From: Deltaproteobacteria bacterium
Lineage (GTDB): Bacteria; Myxococcota; JACPTQ01
Length of the DNA stretch: 64,000 bases
Reading direction: 5' to 3'
Assembly (NCBI GenBank): GCA_016192705.1
Contig: JACPTQ010000009.1
Coordinates: forward strand, 1-64,000
Shown: positions 8,722 to 16,452 of the stretch, piece by piece
How the letters are laid out: every line of letters starts with the position of its first letter
How positions within the stretch are numbered: the first letter of the stretch is position 1
Translations under genes and position numbers: made by a program
The notes under the pieces: generated by a model
The model's input: the letters and a program-made list of their open reading frames with translations, nothing else
Databases searched by the model: none
Told to the model about the DNA's origin: nothing

Positions 8722-9138
8722 ATGGGACAGAGACGACGGGCGCGCGAGTGCGCCGTACAGATCCTTTACCAAATGGACACGAATGCGCTCCCCGTCGAGC
8801 AGGCGCTCGGGCATTTTTGGGGCAGCTTTGCGGAGGGTGAAACCGATCGCGCGTTCGTCGAGCGCATCGTTCGCGGCGCGACCGACAACCGCGCGGCGAT
8901 CGACGAACGTCTCGCGACGGCGTCAAAGAATTGGCGGCTCGACCGCATGCCCGTCGTTGACCGCGCCATTCTGCGCGCTGCCGCGTACGAGCTTTTGTTC
9001 TGCGACGATATCCCAGCGCGCGTCGCAATCAACGAAGCGATCGACATCGCGAAACGCTTTGGCAGCGAGGAGTCGGCCCCGTTCGTCAACGGCATCCTCG
9101 ATAACCTCGCGGGTGAGAAGCTCGCCAAGGCGAAATAA
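8722..9138 (+). CDS. nusB: Transcription antitermination factor NusB
   Basis: 138 aa, the usual length. It binds boxA RNA with NusE in rRNA antitermination complexes. The N-terminus (MGQRRRARECAVQILYQMD) and the LPVVDRAILRAAAYELLF-type central motif (here MPVVDRAILRAAAYELLFCD) are typical. The C-terminal helix has ARVAINEAIDIAKRFG and FVNGILDNLA. Placement directly after ribH is the common bacterial arrangement and closes the operon. The convergent ATP-grasp gene ends 14 bases away. Confidence 0.95.
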   Translation: MGQRRRARECAVQILYQMDTNALPVEQALGHFWGSFAEGETDRAFVERIVRGATDNRAAIDERLATASKNWRLDRMPVVDRAILRAAAYELLFCDDIPARVAINEAIDIAKRFGSEESAPFVNGILDNLAGEKLAKAK

Positions 9139-9152
9139 AAAAGCCGGAAGGA

Positions 9153-11240
9153 TCAACCGCGGCGTGCTGCGCGTATCCCCGCAACTTCTGCATTCGGTGT
9201 GGAAACGCGCTCGCGATGGCGCCGAATCGCGCCCGCGAGGATGTCGCCGATGAGCCCGTTGTAGTCGATGCCGCCCGCACGCCCGATGAGGACGAGATCC
9301 GAAAAGCCGGGCGTCAGCCCTGGGAGTGGATTCGCCTCCAAGAAGTAAGGAACGCCGTTCGCGTCCATTCTGAAGTCGATGCGCGCGACGTCGCGAAGCC
9401 CGAGCGCCTCGAACACACCCTGGGCCGCCACCTCCAGCGCCCGCTGCTCGCGCGCCGTGATGTTCGCCGGGCAATCGTACCGCACGCGGCGATCCCACTC
9501 TTGTTTGATCGCGAAATCATAAACCGGGAACTCCGCCTCCGAATTCAAGAACACGATTTCCATCGGCGGCAGCGCGCGCGGGCGGCGATCGCCGAGAACC
9601 CCCACCGTAAACTCGCGCCCCACCACGTACTCCTCAACGAGCGCCGGCTGCCGGTACCGCTCGATGAGCTCCGTCGCCACGCGTCGCGCTTCGGCCTCGC
9701 TCGTCACAACCGAGCGCGCCGTGATCCCCTTCGACGACCCCTCAAACGTCGGTTTCACAATGACGGGGTAGCTGAGCCCCTTCATGATCTTCGTGCGCGT
9801 CGACGACACAAGCTGAAACCGCGGCGTCGCGAGGCCATGCGAGGCGACGACCCGTTTCGCAAGCGCCTTGTCGAGACACACGGCGAGCGCGCCGACGTCG
9901 CTCCCCGTGTATGGAATCCCAAGCAGCTCGAGGAGGGCCGGAATGTGCGCCTCGCGATTTCGCCCCTCGCGCCCCTCCGCAATGTTGAACACCACATCAA
10001 CCGGCGTTTCGGTGAGCGCCTGCGCAAGCTCAGGCCCCGCCTCGAAATGAACGACGCGATGCCCAAGCGCCCCAATCGCTTCCGCAATCGCATTGATTGT
10101 CGCCGGTGGATCGTATTCGGCCTCGTCGTCGTCGGCGGCCGTTATCGCCATGTTGCCATCAAGCGCCCGTGGCTTGACGCGCTTGACGTTGTACGTGAAC
10201 CCAACGGCGAGCGGACCTGCGTGTGCGCCGCCGCTCTTCCCCGTGCGCCCGTGCGACAACAGCCCGTACCGGCGCGCCGCGCTGTCGACGATCGACAAAA
10301 TGACGCCCGCGAAATCGAGCCCCGACCGCGACGCCGCCAAAAACAACCCGGCCTCGGGATTCAAACTCGGCAATGCGTTCACCTCGAGAAAATAAATAGC
10401 GCCGTCGTCACCAAACCGCACGTCGATGCGCCCAACGTCACGCACCTTGAGCCGCCGGAACGCCTCGCGCGTAAACGCCACAAGCCGCTCCTGCGCACCG
10501 GCCGGGATGGGCGCCGGAATCACGATACGCACGCTCCCAGCCGCAGCCGACTTGAGCGTGTAGTCGTACAGGCGATACGGAGTTTCTTCGATCGCCTCGT
10601 ATTCGTACGCAAACGGCGTCAGGACACCGAGCGAACCCTCGAGAAACGGCACCGCGACATCAATCCCGTGAATATACTCCTCGACGAGCAGCCCGTTCGG
10701 AAACCGCGCAAGCAACCCCTTCGCGCCGCGAACAATCTCAACAAGTCGGTCGTACGACGTTGCCACCGACGACGCCGAAATCCCGAGGCTCGACCCTTCG
10801 AAATTCGGCTTCGCGATAACCGGGTATTTGAGCCCCCGACACGCCGCCCAATCCGCCTCGCTCCGAACCACGCACCCCCCGGGGATCGCGATACCGAGCC
10901 CCCCGAGCGCCGACTTCGTCATCGCCTTATCGAGCGTCAGCGCGAGCGTCCATGCGTCCGACCCAGTGAACGGAATCGCCATGTCCTCGAGCACCGCGGG
11001 GACGAGCGCCTCGCGGTACGGCCCGCGCCGCCCCTCGGCGATATTGAAAACCAAGTCTGGCCGAAACGCCGCGAGCTTTCCCACCGTCCGCGCGAGCGGC
11101 TGCGATACGTTCACTGCCTCAGCGACGTGTCCGCCGCTCGAAAGGGCGCGCAAGATTTCGTTGATGGTTTCCGGAGGATCGTACTCAGCTTCGTCTTCGT
11201 GCGTCGATGTCTGAACGTTACAAGTGACCAGAATTCTCAT
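9153..11240 (-). CDS. Tandem ATP-grasp ligase (two D-Ala-D-Ala-ligase-like halves)
   Basis: 695 aa from the ATG at 11240 (MRILVTCNVQTS). The open frame continues to 11381, but the extension overlaps the GNAT gene and has no protein character. Two complete ATP-grasp units lie in tandem, about 1-335 and 345-685. Each starts with a DEAEYDPP(E/A)TIN motif followed by VFNIAEG and (I/Y)PFTGSD-like segments. Each has its own glycine-rich loop (NFEGSSLGI; TFEGSSKGI), VEEY strand and Mg-binding end (FLEVNALPSLNPEAG; FLEANPLPGLTPGF). Both active sites look intact. The N-terminal subdomain differs from true Ddl, so the substrate is not predicted. Its start overlaps the GNAT stop by 23 bases. Known relatives form amide or peptide bonds via acyl-phosphates. 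Confidence 0.88.
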   Translation of the reverse strand: MRILVTCNVQTSTHEDEAEYDPPETINEILRALSSGGHVAEAVNVSQPLARTVGKLAAFRPDLVFNIAEGRRGPYREALVPAVLEDMAIPFTGSDAWTLALTLDKAMTKSALGGLGIAIPGGCVVRSEADWAACRGLKYPVIAKPNFEGSSLGISASSVATSYDRLVEIVRGAKGLLARFPNGLLVEEYIHGIDVAVPFLEGSLGVLTPFAYEYEAIEETPYRLYDYTLKSAAAGSVRIVIPAPIPAGAQERLVAFTREAFRRLKVRDVGRIDVRFGDDGAIYFLEVNALPSLNPEAGLFLAASRSGLDFAGVILSIVDSAARRYGLLSHGRTGKSGGAHAGPLAVGFTYNVKRVKPRALDGNMAITAADDDEAEYDPPATINAIAEAIGALGHRVVHFEAGPELAQALTETPVDVVFNIAEGREGRNREAHIPALLELLGIPYTGSDVGALAVCLDKALAKRVVASHGLATPRFQLVSSTRTKIMKGLSYPVIVKPTFEGSSKGITARSVVTSEAEARRVATELIERYRQPALVEEYVVGREFTVGVLGDRRPRALPPMEIVFLNSEAEFPVYDFAIKQEWDRRVRYDCPANITAREQRALEVAAQGVFEALGLRDVARIDFRMDANGVPYFLEANPLPGLTPGFSDLVLIGRAGGIDYNGLIGDILAGAIRRHRERVSTPNAEVAGIRAARRG

Positions 11241-11718
11241 TCTGCGCCAACACCTTTCTGTAAATGATGAGGTCGTCGCCCACCTTGTAGTAATCGGGAA
11301 TGCGGGCCGCCACGGAATAACCCGCTCTGTCGTAAAATGCTCTCGTTTTAGCGTACGCCGGATTCGAGCCCGTCTCGACAATCAGGTGGCGCGCGCCCCC
11401 CATTCGCAACTCCTCCTCAACCCCCGCAAGCAGCCCGCGCCCAAGCCCACCCCCACGGCGGAACGAACTCACGGCGATCCAGTACAGATCGAACGTCGCG
11501 TCGGTCATCGGCGTCGGGCCATAACACGCATACCCGAGCGCCGTGTCGTTCTCATCCGTTGTGATTCTGAAAATGTAATCGGTCTGCGCGTCATCGGATA
11601 ACGCGGCGTCGACCAGCTCAATCGCGCACGCCTTCTCCGCGTCCGTGAATTCTGTCGTACCGCGGATCAGGCGAACAAGCTCAGTTCGATCGCGCGAGCA
11701 AAGTTTCCGAATTCTCAT
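11218..11718 (-). CDS. GNAT-family N-acyltransferase
   Basis: 166 aa from the ATG at 11718 (MRIRKLCSRDRTELV); upstream residues of the open frame look non-coding. The acyl-CoA binding motif is SSFRRGGGLGRGLLAGVEEE, preceded by the DLYWIAV strand and followed by HLIVETGSN and the GNAT end AFYDRAGYSVAARIPDYY. It probably transfers an acetyl or other acyl group to an amine. It is embedded in an overlapping ATP-grasp operon: 38 bases of overlap with the upstream ligase and 23 with the downstream tandem ligase. That context suggests capping or tailoring of a ligase product, which is inference. Confidence 0.85.
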   Translation of the reverse strand: MRIRKLCSRDRTELVRLIRGTTEFTDAEKACAIELVDAALSDDAQTDYIFRITTDENDTALGYACYGPTPMTDATFDLYWIAVSSFRRGGGLGRGLLAGVEEELRMGGARHLIVETGSNPAYAKTRAFYDRAGYSVAARIPDYYKVGDDLIIYRKVLAQNENSGHL

Positions 11719-12811
11719 AGCCCTTTTCTTGCCGTTCACGTCTCTCGCCCCGTCGATCTTGACGTTGCGATGCGGCCACTCGCCGCCCCGCTCTCGCCCG
11801 CACCTTCGCGCCGTTCGCGATCGCGTATGTAACAATCTTCTCGATCATCGCCGTGTAATCAAGCCCGGCCGCCGCCGCCGCGCGCACAAACCCAGCACCC
11901 GGCGAAATATCGGGGTTGGGATTCACCTCGATCACATAAGGCTGCCCGGTCGGCGAAACGCGCAAGTCGACCCGCGCGTACCCGGTACACCCAACGCCAT
12001 GATACGCAAGAACCGCCACGCGCCGAAGTTCCTCCGCAAGTCCGTCGTCAATCTTAGCCGGCACTTCAGACGGCGTCGACAGATACTCCCAAGACCGCGC
12101 GGTCCACTTCGCCCGATAACTGCAAATGCGCGCCACACCGGGCGGAAACCCGTTGAACCGAATTCGGCCGATCGGAAGCGTCTCGCCGCCACACCACACC
12201 GGCACGGAGTACTCGTCGCCGTCGATGTACTCTTCGACGATGGCTGGCTGCTTGAAGCGCCACATCACATAGCGCGCCCGCTTCGCGAGCGAGAGCGCAT
12301 CGCGCACAACCGAGTTTTGGCTGATTCCGATCGAACCATCTTCGCGCACCGGCTTCACGATCGCCGGCAAGAAATCGACGTCACCACAACGCCGCATCTC
12401 GTCCACCAACACGCCGCGCGGTGTCGGAACACCCGCCTCCACAAGCGCGACCTTCGCCTTGAACTTATCCAGACAGCGCTCGAGGCACTTCGGCGTGCCC
12501 CCCGTGCTCACGATTCCAAGACGATCGAGAAGCGACGCCACCCACGCCTCGCCGCGACTGTCGCCCGCGACCGCCTCGCACGAATGAAACACCCAAGCCG
12601 GGCGCATGCGGACCAGCTCGCTTCGCAAATCGTCGACATCGGACCCAACCGGCACAAGCTTCAACGATCCCGCGATGGCCCGTCGCGCAATCAACTCGTT
12701 GAGCGAGCGTTCAATCGCGTCGACACACTTCATCACACTCTTGTGCGCAACCAGCGATTCAATCCCGTTCGCGTTGGTGAGTGTCTCCGCGTTGTAAAGA
12801 AGGGCAAACAC
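11681..12811 (-). CDS. ATP-grasp ligase, D-Ala-D-Ala-ligase-like
   Basis: 376 aa from a GTG at 12811, one base after the stop of the receiver gene (TGA-C-GTG), with a GGAG a few bases further up. The frame stays open to 12961, but that part runs antisense in sense to the receiver gene and is Arg-rich. The ATP-grasp fold is visible: DKFKAKVALVEAGVPTPRG, IVKPVREDGSIGIS (nucleotide loop), AIVEEYIDGDEY and the metal-binding YARVDLRV plus YVIEVNPNPDISPGAGF. The N-terminal domain is unlike Ddl. The C-terminal 40 residues are basic and Arg-rich. Substrate unknown; the genomic partners are a GNAT and a tandem ATP-grasp. Confidence 0.87.
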   Translation of the reverse strand: MFALLYNAETLTNANGIESLVAHKSVMKCVDAIERSLNELIARRAIAGSLKLVPVGSDVDDLRSELVRMRPAWVFHSCEAVAGDSRGEAWVASLLDRLGIVSTGGTPKCLERCLDKFKAKVALVEAGVPTPRGVLVDEMRRCGDVDFLPAIVKPVREDGSIGISQNSVVRDALSLAKRARYVMWRFKQPAIVEEYIDGDEYSVPVWCGGETLPIGRIRFNGFPPGVARICSYRAKWTARSWEYLSTPSEVPAKIDDGLAEELRRVAVLAYHGVGCTGYARVDLRVSPTGQPYVIEVNPNPDISPGAGFVRAAAAAGLDYTAMIEKIVTYAIANGAKVRARAGRRVAASQRQDRRGERRERQEKGYENSETLLARSN

Positions 12812-12812
12812 G

Positions 12813-13283
12813 TCAGACGTGCTCCGCCGTTTCGCCAACGTCCGCGGCAGCCGCAGCCGCGGCCCCAACCGCATTTGCAACGACACCGGCTGTTGGCGCG
12901 GCCTTCGCACCCGCAGCCAATCGTGCCGAGCGGCGCGCGGCAACGGTTTCGACCGCCGCAAGTATTTCGCTCAGACGAAACGGCTTTGACAAAAGCACGA
13001 TCTCGCCCGTCTCAAGGTACGACCGACTAAACCGCTCGCCGTAGGCCGTGATAACGACGATCGCCGTCTCCGGCTGTACCGCCCGCGTCTCTTCGATCAC
13101 CTCGAGCCCGTCAACATCGGGCATGTTGAGGTCTGTGATGACCAGGTCGAACGGAATCGCACCGAGACTTTCAACGGCCAAGCGACCGCTTGAAACCGTC
13201 GTTACCGCGTGCCCTTCCTCGCGAAGCACTTCGGCGAGGGCGTCCCGCGTGTTGGGTTCGTCGTCAGCAACCAGAATGCGCAC
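12813..13283 (-). CDS. Single-domain response regulator with Ala-rich tail
   Basis: 156 aa from the GTG at 13283 (MRILVADDEPNTRDAL); a TTG at 13289 is possible. The receiver domain covers residues 1-120, with acidic pocket ADDE, phosphoacceptor Asp in VITDLNMPDVDG, the Thr in VVITAYG and the Lys in LLSKPFRL. After the receiver there is only a low-complexity Ala/Val/Gly tail and no DNA-binding domain. It is the first gene of the ATP-grasp operon, with one base between its stop and the next start. This is an unusual position for a CheY-like protein; it may modulate the enzymes or cross-talk with the neighbouring histidine kinase. Confidence 0.88.
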   Translation of the reverse strand: MRILVADDEPNTRDALAEVLREEGHAVTTVSSGRLAVESLGAIPFDLVITDLNMPDVDGLEVIEETRAVQPETAIVVITAYGERFSRSYLETGEIVLLSKPFRLSEILAAVETVAARRSARLAAGAKAAPTAGVVANAVGAAAAAAADVGETAEHV

Positions 13284-13296
13284 GCGCAATTAACTG

Positions 13297-13312
13297 AGCA
13301 ACTCAAGTGCCA
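13297..13312 (-). promoter_or_regulatory. Sigma-54 promoter (-24/-12) of the ATP-grasp operon
   Basis: On the minus strand the site reads TGGCAC-TTGAG-TTGCT, matching the sigma-54 consensus TGGCAC-N5-TTGCW exactly with correct spacing. The predicted start of transcription is near 13286-13288. That is within a few bases of the GTG (13283) of the receiver gene, so the message would be leaderless or nearly so. A sigma-54 activator gene lies 1.7 kb away in the divergent operon. Confidence 0.82.
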
Positions 13313-13381: not shown

Positions 13382-13416
13382 CTGAGAGTTTCATTCTCAA
13401 ACTGAGAGCAAGTCTC
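13382..13416. promoter_or_regulatory. Candidate upstream activator site: direct and inverted repeats
   Basis: CTGAGAG occurs twice, at 13382-13388 and 13402-13408, exactly 20 bases apart (about two helical turns). TGAGA (13383-13387) also pairs as an inverted repeat with TCTCA (13395-13399), and GAGAG with GTCTC further on. The block lies 70-104 bases upstream of the sigma-54 promoter, the normal distance for an enhancer bound by an NtrC-type protein. It overlaps the -35 region of the divergent kinase promoter, so autoregulation is possible. Binding by the adjacent activator is inferred. Confidence 0.5.
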
Positions 13417-13422
13417 TATAAT
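13394..13422 (+). promoter_or_regulatory. Sigma-70 type promoter of the histidine kinase operon
   Basis: A perfect -10 TATAAT at 13417-13422 lies 17 bases after a partial -35 TTCTCA at 13394-13399. Transcription should begin near 13429, at or just before the GTG (13433) of the histidine kinase. This again implies a leaderless or very short-leader mRNA. Confidence 0.6.
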
Positions 13423-13432
13423 CGCGTTGCTC

Positions 13433-14986
13433 GTGTCGCTTCGAAAAAAACTTTTCCTCTCGTTCCTCGCGCTCGCGTGCCTCGTTGGTGTGGCGAGCTT
13501 CTATTTTATTCAGCGCCTCCACGAGATGAACGAAATCGTCGAGACGATGCTCTCGGTCGACGTCAAAACCATCTACTTTGAAAAAGGGTTTCGCGAAGCG
13601 TTTTATCGGATGCAGAGCGCCGGCCGTCGGTATCTCGACAAGGGAAACCCAGAAGACCTGCGCGCAATGGAGGATTTCAAACGCACGTGCGTTGAACAGC
13701 TCGAGCGCATCGTCGTGCTGCTCGACAGCGCGAAGGAACGAAAGATTCTTGCGCAAATCGAAGCGGGATATCGAAGAATGAATCTTCTTTTTGCAGAGGA
13801 CATCTCGAGCCGAAAAGCAAACGCCCTAGGCGAAGCGCCCAACGAAGCCAAACGGTTCCAAACCTCGGAAGAGATCGCCAAGAATATTCACGCGCTTGTG
13901 CGACTTTCGGACCAATCGATCGGCCTGCAGGTCAGCCGCGCGCAGAAAATAGGAACGACGGGGCGACAAATCGGCTTCGTCGTTGCAGGCATCGGGCTGT
14001 CGGTTGGATTCGTGCTCGCGTGGCTCCTCACGCGGCGCATCACGCGACCCATCGTCGAACTCGGCCAGGCAACGGAGCGCGTCGCCGCCGGCGAGTTCCA
14101 TGTGCGCACACCTGAGCGCGGCAACGACGAGCTCACACAGCTGGCGCGGCAGTTCAACCAGATGGCGACCCGCCTCGCCGAACTGGACGGCGCGAAATCG
14201 GCGTTCATCGCGAACGTGAGCCACGAGCTTCGCACACCCCTGACCTCCATTCGCGAGGCCAACAAACTCATCCAAGACGGACTTGCCGGCCCGCTCACGT
14301 CGCAGCAACGCGAGCTGCTCGATATCTCCATGGAGGCGTGCCGTCGCCTCATCGATCTCGTCAAGGACGTTCTCGAGCTCTCAAAAATGAAGGCACACGT
14401 TGTCCCGTTTCGATTCGAGCCGACCCCGATCGATTCGCTAATCGAGGAGTGTCTGTCCGAGTTTCGACTTGTCGCACAAAAAAAGGGGATTGCCGTTGAG
14501 TTCAGTGCCGAGGGCGAAGTCCCGCCTGTCGTCGTTGACCGTCAACGCGTAGCGCAGGCGATTTCGACGCTGCTCACGAACGCGCTCAAGTTCACCGCGG
14601 AGCACGGCCGCATATCGGTCACGCGTCGGGTCGCCGCAGCCCCCGACTCGCCTCCTCCGTGGGGTCGAGCCTCGCCGAGCAGCGCGACCGGCCGCTCCAA
14701 CTTCGAAACGCCAGCCGGAAAACAAGCCGCACGCGGCGTCGATTCGCGGCGCGTTGTCGGCGCGATATCGGACAGCGGCGCCGGGATTGCGCCCGATCGG
14801 CTCACGGAGATTCGGCGACGACTCGAAAGCGGAACGGTTGGCGTTGAGGGCGGGCTCGGCCTCGCGATCGCGCGCGAAGTCGCGATTGCGCACAACGGCG
14901 ATCTCGTTCTTGAGAGCCAGCAGAACGTCGGCACAACCGTGCGTTTTTCGTTGCCGGTGACGTCGCCAAAGAGAGAGGGAGCGTAG
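13433..14986 (+). CDS. Membrane sensor histidine kinase, HAMP-containing
   Basis: 517 aa from GTG 13433 (TTG 13427 is also possible). The first membrane helix (KLFLSFLALACLVGVASFYF) is followed by a periplasmic helical sensor of about 150 residues and a second helix near 182-203. A HAMP linker (RRITRPIVELGQATERVAAG), the dimerisation/phosphoacceptor box SHELRTPLTSIRE and an ATPase domain follow (N-box LTNALKF, G1 DSGAGI, G2 GLGLAI). An insertion of about 45 Ser/Pro/Gly-rich residues lies between the N and G1 boxes and is unusual. The layout resembles GlrK/QseE. It is followed after 2 bases by its likely partner, the NtrC-type regulator. Confidence 0.93.
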   Translation: MSLRKKLFLSFLALACLVGVASFYFIQRLHEMNEIVETMLSVDVKTIYFEKGFREAFYRMQSAGRRYLDKGNPEDLRAMEDFKRTCVEQLERIVVLLDSAKERKILAQIEAGYRRMNLLFAEDISSRKANALGEAPNEAKRFQTSEEIAKNIHALVRLSDQSIGLQVSRAQKIGTTGRQIGFVVAGIGLSVGFVLAWLLTRRITRPIVELGQATERVAAGEFHVRTPERGNDELTQLARQFNQMATRLAELDGAKSAFIANVSHELRTPLTSIREANKLIQDGLAGPLTSQQRELLDISMEACRRLIDLVKDVLELSKMKAHVVPFRFEPTPIDSLIEECLSEFRLVAQKKGIAVEFSAEGEVPPVVVDRQRVAQAISTLLTNALKFTAEHGRISVTRRVAAAPDSPPPWGRASPSSATGRSNFETPAGKQAARGVDSRRVVGAISDSGAGIAPDRLTEIRRRLESGTVGVEGGLGLAIAREVAIAHNGDLVLESQQNVGTTVRFSLPVTSPKREGA

Positions 14987-14988
14987 CG

Positions 14989-16452
14989 ATGAGCGGTGAG
15001 CATATCCTGGTTGTCGACGACGATCGCCACATCCTGGAGGTGTTGCGGCTGCGCCTTCAAGCGAACGGCTACAAGATTTCGTGCACGCTCCGCCCAGAAG
15101 AGGCGCTTGAATGGGTCACCTCCCGAAAGCCGGACCTCATGATCGCCGATCTTCGAATGGCCGGCATGGATGGCCTCACGCTGCTCCGAGAAGCGCGGAC
15201 CGCGAATCCCGACCTTCCGGTCATAATTCTGACGGCTCACGGCAGCATTGAGAACGCCGTCGAAGCGGTGCGCCAAGGCGCGTATGGGTACGTCACAAAG
15301 CCATACGACGACGCGCAACTGCTTCAAGAGCTGAAAAACGCGCTCGAGCGGCGACGCCTTATGCGCGAAGTGAATCGACTCGAGTCGATCGTCAAGGAGC
15401 GCTTCGACGTCGGCGAGATCATCGGCAAGGCGGCCCGCATGGTTGCGGTGTTTGAACAGGTTGAACGCGTCGCACCGACCGACGCGACCGTGTTCATCTC
15501 GGGCGAAAGCGGCACGGGAAAGGAGCTCGTCGCAAAAGCGATTCACCTCGCAAGCCCGCGCGGGAAAGGGCCGTTCGTCGCCGTCAACATGGGCGCACTC
15601 CCCGAAACGCTCCTCGAAAACGAGCTCTTCGGGCACGTCAAGGGGGCCTTCACGGGCGCGAACCGCGAAAAAGAGGGGCTCTTCGCCGCGGCTCAAGGCG
15701 GGACGATTTTCCTCGACGAAATTGGCGACGCGCCACTTCCCATTCAGGTTAAGCTGTTGCGGGTGCTCCAAGATCGCAAGTTCACACGACTCGGCGAAGT
15801 TCACGAAATCGAAACCGATGCGCGCGTCATCACCGCGTCGAATCGCGATTTGCGAAAAATGGTCAAGGACGGGAAGTTTCGCGAGGATCTGTTTTTCCGA
15901 ATCCACGTCGTGCCGATCGAACTGCCGCCGCTCCGAGACCGTAAGGACGACATTCCGCGGCTCGCGTTTCATTTTCTAAAAAGGTTCTCTGAGCAAGTGG
16001 GACGCGAAATTCGGGGGTTCTCGACAGCGGCGCTTGAGGCTCTCATCGCGTACGATTGGCCAGGGAACGTTCGCGAGCTCGAAAACACCATTGAGCATGC
16101 GGTGGTCATGGCGAAAGCTGACGAAATCCAGGCGAGCGAGGTCACGTTTATCTCGCGATCGGGCGCAGCGGGCCGAGGCCAGTCCGTCGCGGGCGCCGCC
16201 GGAAGCGTCTTGACCGAGGCGCCGTCGCTGCCGCCGTACAAACAGGCGCGCGAGAGCTTCGAGCGCGAGTACCTCGAGCAACTCCTTCGGCTGACGCGCG
16301 GTAATGTCAGCGCCGCGGCGCGGCTTGCCGGAAAATACCGTGCCGACCTCTACGGCCTCCTTCGTAAACATGGGCTCGATCCAGGCACGTTCAAGGGGGC
16401 CGGGGGTGAACCGACCCCAGCCGAAGACGCCGCTGGCGACGATGAAAAATAA
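14989..16452 (+). CDS. Sigma-54-dependent NtrC-family response regulator
   Basis: 487 aa. The receiver domain (1-120) has VVDDDRH, phosphoacceptor [11 protein letters not shown] and VTKPYDD. The AAA+ sigma-54 interaction domain covers about 140-380, with Walker A GESGTGKE, the sigma-54 contact loop GAFTGA, Walker [12 protein letters not shown] and [11 protein letters not shown]. The C-terminal Fis-type helix-turn-helix is near 440-470 ([20 protein letters not shown]). All parts needed for activation are intact. It resembles GlrR. The start follows the kinase stop by 2 bases, with a GAGGGAG ribosome site inside the kinase end. Candidate sigma-54 promoters flank this operon on both sides (13297 and 16626), making them its probable targets. 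Confidence 0.94.

Follow-up and report, generated by a model that had tools for sequence, protein, structure and literature searches.

The 64,000-nucleotide stretch analyzed here (the window; positions 1 to 64,000 of contig JACPTQ010000009.1, assembly GCA_016192705.1, from a Myxococcota genome of 5.2 Mb recorded as Deltaproteobacteria bacterium) carries a compact four-gene operon on the minus strand. It encodes a CheY-like receiver (RR), an ATP-grasp ligase (AG1), a GNAT acyltransferase and a fused tandem of two further ATP-grasp ligases (AG2-AG3). Gene content, gene order and family membership can be read directly from the sequence, as can the intact catalytic residues of the ligases and the loss of their residues specific for D-alanine (D-Ala). 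By comparison with gene neighborhoods elsewhere, the operon is a lineage-specific Myxococcota form of a widespread module of predicted peptide ligases.

The genes are tightly packed, with a 1-base gap between RR and AG1 and overlaps of 38 bases between AG1 and GNAT and 23 bases between GNAT and AG2-AG3. The starts of AG1, GNAT and AG2-AG3 match those of their homologues, which open with the same first strand. Within the tandem protein, AG2 spans approximately residues 1-335 and AG3 approximately residues 344-680. A Pfam scan of RR found no output domain. A first-pass annotation had described this layout, the four protein identities and a separate real ddl gene at 60.4 kb; the coordinates are confirmed, the Pfam matches agree, and a ddl start was found near 60.36 kb. 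At its far end the operon converges on a nusB-like gene on the plus strand (end at 9138; named by eye from the sequence).

Table 1 Genes and candidate control elements at the operon locus
Feature	Position	Strand	Evidence
RR, stand-alone CheY-like receiver, 156 aa, GTG start, Ala-rich tail	12813..13283	minus	Pfam Response_reg 3.8e-24
AG1, Ddl-fold ATP-grasp ligase, A1 family, 376 aa, GTG start	11681..12811	minus	Pfam Dala_Dala_lig_C 1.6e-24
GNAT N-acyltransferase, cluster-associated family, 166 aa	11218..11718	minus	Pfam Acetyltransf_1 8.3e-08
AG2-AG3, fused tandem Ddl-fold ATP-grasp ligases, 695 aa	9153..11240	minus	Two Dala_Dala_lig_C stretches (Pfam)
Sensor histidine kinase (HAMP, HisKA, HATPase), divergent	13427..14986	plus	Pfam
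NtrC/AtoC-type sigma-54 activator with receiver domain	14989..16452	plus	Sigma54_activat 1.1e-68, HTH_8 (Pfam)
Sigma-54 consensus match, TGGCAC-N5-TTGCT, candidate promoter	13297..13312	minus	Motif search

Ligase families, active sites and fold

The three ligase domains were placed in a tree of 87 rows, in which D-alanine--D-alanine ligase (Ddl) is represented by two sequences only, that of the window genome and E. coli DdlB. AG1 is placed in the A1 clade of 33 rows with a support of 100/98. AG2 joins the other N-terminal tandem halves (tandemN clade, 100/100), and AG3 joins the C-terminal tandem halves and the single-domain A3 family (tandemC/A3 clade, 100/94). The two Ddl sequences form a separate branch, apart from all three domains of the window. 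Based on the placement of AG2 and AG3, the tandem is most simply explained by duplication and fusion inside the A3 family, here seen in Myxococcota only.

The active sites were compared using the numbering of E. coli DdlB, with the roles of the residues (nucleotide, metal and D-Ala binding, and the triad) known from established Ddl biochemistry. K97, K144, E180, K215, R255, D257, E270 and N272 are conserved in AG1, AG2 and AG3, and E187 is replaced by aspartate in AG2. H63 is replaced by glutamate in every family member read, Y216 by W, S and Q and S281 by A, A and F in AG1, AG2 and AG3, respectively, and S150 by glycine in AG1. Because the nucleotide and metal residues are kept and those tied to D-Ala are changed, the three domains should be active ligases with substrates other than D-Ala. 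The alignment thereby bears out the first-pass reading that all three sites retain their nucleotide loop and metal-binding residues.

AlphaFold models of AG1 and AG3, built using relatives from the named-genome loci described below, reached predicted local distance difference test (pLDDT) scores of 91.9 and 89.9, respectively. For each, the best matches are complete Ddl structures covering both domains, with a template modeling (TM) score of around 0.8 (by target), and the N-terminal domain of AG1 and AG3 is therefore Ddl-like in its predicted fold. The NCBIfam Ddl model likewise aligns to AG3 from position 28 through the end. The earlier proposal of N-terminal domains unlike those of Ddl thus holds for sequence identity only and fails at the level of fold. 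Against the NCBIfam Ddl cut-off of 243 bits, AG1 scores 118 and a single-domain A3 protein 200, and protein P0004 reaches 336 only with both domains together. Compared with E. coli DdlB and P. aeruginosa DdlA and DdlB, the window ligases share the whole fold, including the N-terminal domain, and the residues for ATP and Mg2+, but differ in clade, in the replacement of H63, Y216 and S281, and in the sub-threshold score of AG1.

The Ddl fold could also suit a side pathway of the cell wall, in which the ligases would supply peptidoglycan with modified D-amino acid dipeptides and D-Ala would be acetylated by the GNAT. In keeping with this, the solved structure closest to the window GNAT, PDB 2r7h (E=2.5e-37), was named a putative D-alanine N-acetyltransferase on deposition. 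However, the families consistently have other residues at the D-Ala-binding positions Y216, S281 and H63 and lie outside Ddl in the tree, and the genes conserved beside the clusters include no Mur or penicillin-binding gene. The name of 2r7h is itself marked putative, found no support in a literature search, and may reflect Ddl-annotated neighbors. We consider a cell-wall role very improbable; the tree and the changed D-Ala residues agree with the first-pass view that the operon is not a duplication of the cell-wall Ddl.

Gene neighborhoods across phyla and within Myxococcota

A scan of named genomes with an alignment of the GNAT family confirmed at least 571 loci, of which the best 80 were read. 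The query has no direct bias to the ligases or to KamA, a lysine 2,3-aminomutase-like partner, but ligase-linked GNATs supplied the alignment, and the 80 best matches favor their close relatives. Among these 80 loci, 75 have enough sequence to judge the gene immediately upstream of the GNAT, and in 70 it is an A1-type ligase; the full set of A3, A1, GNAT and KamA is present in 37 of the 54 with enough sequence on both sides. The full set is ordered either A3-A1-G-K or K-A3-A1-G; most loci without it belong to Myxococcaceae and relatives, with A1-GNAT-transglutaminase. According to record titles, it occurs in about 12 phyla: KSB1, Ignavibacteriota, Bacteroidota, Aminicenantota, Acidobacteriota, Lentisphaerota, Kiritimatiellota, Calditrichota, Neomarinimicrobiota, Chloroflexota, Planctomycetota and deltaproteobacterial/Myxococcota genomes. 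Among proteins of at least 90 amino acids, no further neighbor common to several phyla surrounds the module, only lineage-specific genes. The same scan with the tandem protein alone gave no matches, its peptide patterns probably being too specific. In two loci of deltaproteobacterial metagenome-assembled genomes, one titled Syntrophaceae, a ligase-free GNAT directly precedes a 6-phosphofructokinase-like gene (named by eye).

Conserved co-occurrence of the genes, which the first-pass annotation had suggested looking for, is strongly borne out. Its further suggestion that the combination is undescribed overlooks how widespread the core is: two ligases and a GNAT, most often accompanied by a gene for a lysine 2,3-aminomutase-like enzyme. 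A literature search for aminomutases with ATP-grasp, GNAT or D-Ala ligase found no description of the gene set; Iyer et al. 2009 lay outside its coverage. The window operon retains the A1-type ligase followed by a family GNAT in overlap, and its A3-type ligase (AG3) lies in the cluster downstream instead of upstream.

The substrate of the cluster KamA can be approached through Clostridium subterminale lysine 2,3-aminomutase (2a5h), to which KamA protein P0005 aligns with E=5e-142. Two aspartates of 2a5h bind the lysine side chain. Of 52 aligned KamA rows, among them the 2a5h reference and the protein of the window genome, 48 retain both; the remaining four rows are gapped or misaligned there. 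As both aspartates are kept and the best NCBIfam match of cluster KamA is AblA, lysine is likely its substrate. A single KamA-like gene, with both aspartates kept, is present in the window genome and lies on a different contig (C11; 3548-4912 of locus L178). An insertion follows the CxxxCxxC motif of this radical SAM protein, and many relatives have a second, more distant KamA-type match.

Within the phylum, 97 genomes were searched, all from families other than that of the window genome. The tandem AG2-AG3 is found at full length in about 50 of them, with 47-54% identity, and lies apart from AG1-GNAT in the other Myxococcota genomes read; the two are together in the window. In 22 of 26 tandem loci read, a Peptidase_S58 gene follows on the same strand, and hemB and an RDD protein often precede the tandem in Myxococcaceae and neighbors. 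The S58 peptidase of the window genome is unlinked to the operon (C46:14919-16016, 60% identity). This peptidase family is of the DmpA/BapA type, related to beta-aminopeptidases; DmpA/BapA aminopeptidases make and use beta-alanyl peptides (PMC9570944). In Myxococcaceae, AG1 and GNAT form a conserved pair of their own, and the gene after them usually encodes a transglutaminase-fold protein. These AG1-GNAT loci are divergent from two genes, one for an HD-domain protein and one resembling NUDIX plus metallo-beta-lactamase. AblA-like enzymes are encoded at other loci of the Myxococcaceae. Five genomes of the phylum (G016, G002, G034, G019 and G025) carry a single-domain A3 and an A1, with a GNAT in most, beside a KamA-family gene, and an A3-type ligase is present in 39 of the 40 GNAT-bearing genomes (Fisher p ~3e-10, uncorrected for relatedness).

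Control region of the operon

The candidate sigma-54 site TGGCACTTGAGTTGCT (13312-13297) fits the consensus perfectly, and the genome has a single copy of rpoN. Consensus matches are not commoner genome-wide than those of a reversed control (9 versus 12). The site implies a transcription start at about 13286, which leaves 2-4 nt ahead of the GTG and would make the mRNA leaderless. Elsewhere the system has no conserved receiver beside it (none was found linked in related clusters), so the receiver looks like a local addition, as does the sigma-54 motif. The receiver-first sigma-54 operon put forward earlier is therefore not a feature that the system conserves: the promoter is a motif match, and the receiver is unlinked in relatives.

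The adjacency of the divergent histidine kinase and sigma-54 activator makes it plausible that this candidate pair controls the operon. Upstream of the sigma-54 site, inverted repeats that could serve as activator sites were not found by the tool, and short ones were seen by eye. Positions 13385-13425, between the divergent genes, hold a tandem pair of TCTCAG half-sites whose inverted partners are imperfect; they overlap a sigma-70-like site of the histidine kinase gene.

Candidate pathway and its place among known systems

We give roughly even chances to the reading that the operon is the Myxococcota form of a KamA/A3/A1/GNAT pathway whose product would be a short N-acetylated peptide that probably includes a beta-amino acid. 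In its favor count the linkage seen in the scan of named genomes, the placement of all three domains outside Ddl, the pattern of kept and changed active-site residues, the lysine-type aspartates and AblA-like scores of the cluster KamA, the S58 neighbor of the tandem and the A3-type ligase in 39 of 40 GNAT-bearing genomes, together with the KamA-like gene and the S58 peptidase of the window genome. In such a pathway, KamA would supply a beta-amino acid, L-beta-lysine, and the ligases would activate carboxylates to acyl phosphates at the expense of ATP and join at least two amino acids. The GNAT would then cap an amine with an acetyl (or acyl) group. The resulting peptide, short and N-acetylated, might be a compatible solute or another small internal metabolite. 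In the window genome, the fused duplicate AG2-AG3 would take the place of A3, the aminomutase, if used, would come from another locus, and the divergent kinase/activator pair would probably control expression. We infer the chemistry of these steps, and the exact substrates, the role of the product and the regulation are guesses. The conserved ligase-GNAT linkage agrees with the first-pass proposal of a pathway for a peptide-type metabolite. A more specific version, that of a broadly conserved new pathway in about a dozen phyla, in which Ddl-descended ligases make an N-acetylated beta-lysine peptide to which the fused duplicate of the window adds one residue, is held tentatively, as a possibility short of even.

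The proposed steps resemble several known systems in part. The AblA/AblB pathway to N-epsilon-acetyl-beta-lysine in methanogens and green sulfur bacteria also pairs a lysine 2,3-aminomutase with a GNAT; in contrast, the module has two added ATP-grasp ligases and the window has no linked KamA. No AblB model is among the NCBIfam matches of the window GNAT at E<=0.01. The osmolyte pathway to N-acetylglutaminylglutamine amide (NAGGN), encoded by asnO/ngg, likewise combines peptide ligation and N-acetylation into a capped dipeptide. There the GNAT is fused to an ATP-grasp domain, whereas the window GNAT is a separate 166-aa protein and the ligases are of the Ddl type. The window operon has no asnO-like neighbor (nusB and the histidine kinase gene adjoin it instead) and no NCBIfam match to a GNAT-ATP-grasp fusion model. 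At the most general level, ATP-grasp/GNAT amidoligase neighborhoods were reportedly predicted by comparative genomics in Iyer et al. 2009, with the shared idea that the two enzymes make peptide metabolites.

The beta-lysylation of EF-P by EpmA/EpmB also uses a KamA-family enzyme (EpmB) to make beta-lysine for ligation, and could suggest that the ligases here put a short peptide or beta-lysine on a protein side chain or terminus, with the GNAT as the capping enzyme. The transglutaminase-fold protein adjoining AG1-GNAT in Myxococcaceae would be consistent with such tagging. The ligase of the EpmA/EpmB system is LysRS-like, not ATP-grasp, and that system lacks the GNAT present in the module. Against tagging, no conserved acceptor protein was found beside the clusters (among proteins of at least 90 amino acids), and in fold and closest sequences the ligases point to the dipeptide-forming Ddl, RimK-like relatives being far weaker. 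Tagging is accordingly judged improbable.

Several observations weigh against the KamA/A3/A1/GNAT pathway in the window organism. Sequence alone cannot give the substrates of the ligases. The cluster KamA scores 480-497 bits, below the AblA cut-off of 525 (two of the three sequences scanned are partial), and the KamA-like gene of the window genome is of a divergent type, with 262 bits. No KamA gene adjoins the window operon, and the S58 peptidases are not all beta-specific. A few near GNAT relatives stand alone, as do distant plasmid-borne relatives (32-43%) where annotated; the latter were rejected as members of the system because they are stand-alone genes. A scan with Rfam near 17 clusters and in the window turned up tRNAs but no riboswitch, so there is no sign of salt control.

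Some of these points would fit a variant in which the Myxococcota have lost the aminomutase step and the same ligases join ordinary L- or D-amino acids into an acetylated peptide. Neither AG1-GNAT nor AG2-AG3 has a linked KamA gene, in the window and in Myxococcaceae alike, the own KamA-like gene is divergent, and AG2 is an extra ligase outside the four-gene set. Nevertheless, the own gene keeps both KamA-family aspartates, AblA-like enzymes are present elsewhere in Myxococcaceae genomes, and the S58 neighbor hints at beta-peptides. We regard this variant as rather unlikely.

The more specific beta-lysine version, if true, would mean that about a dozen phyla share an internal metabolite of a new class, such as a compatible solute. 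Sequence models are prone to misname the system, since to them the ligases resemble D-alanine--D-alanine ligase and the acyltransferase is a generic GNAT. The data argue for one pathway with a defined set of partners, and its recognition would put annotations right in many uncultured phyla. It would also provide a concrete example of Ddl-fold enzymes recruited to make a peptide metabolite outside the cell wall.

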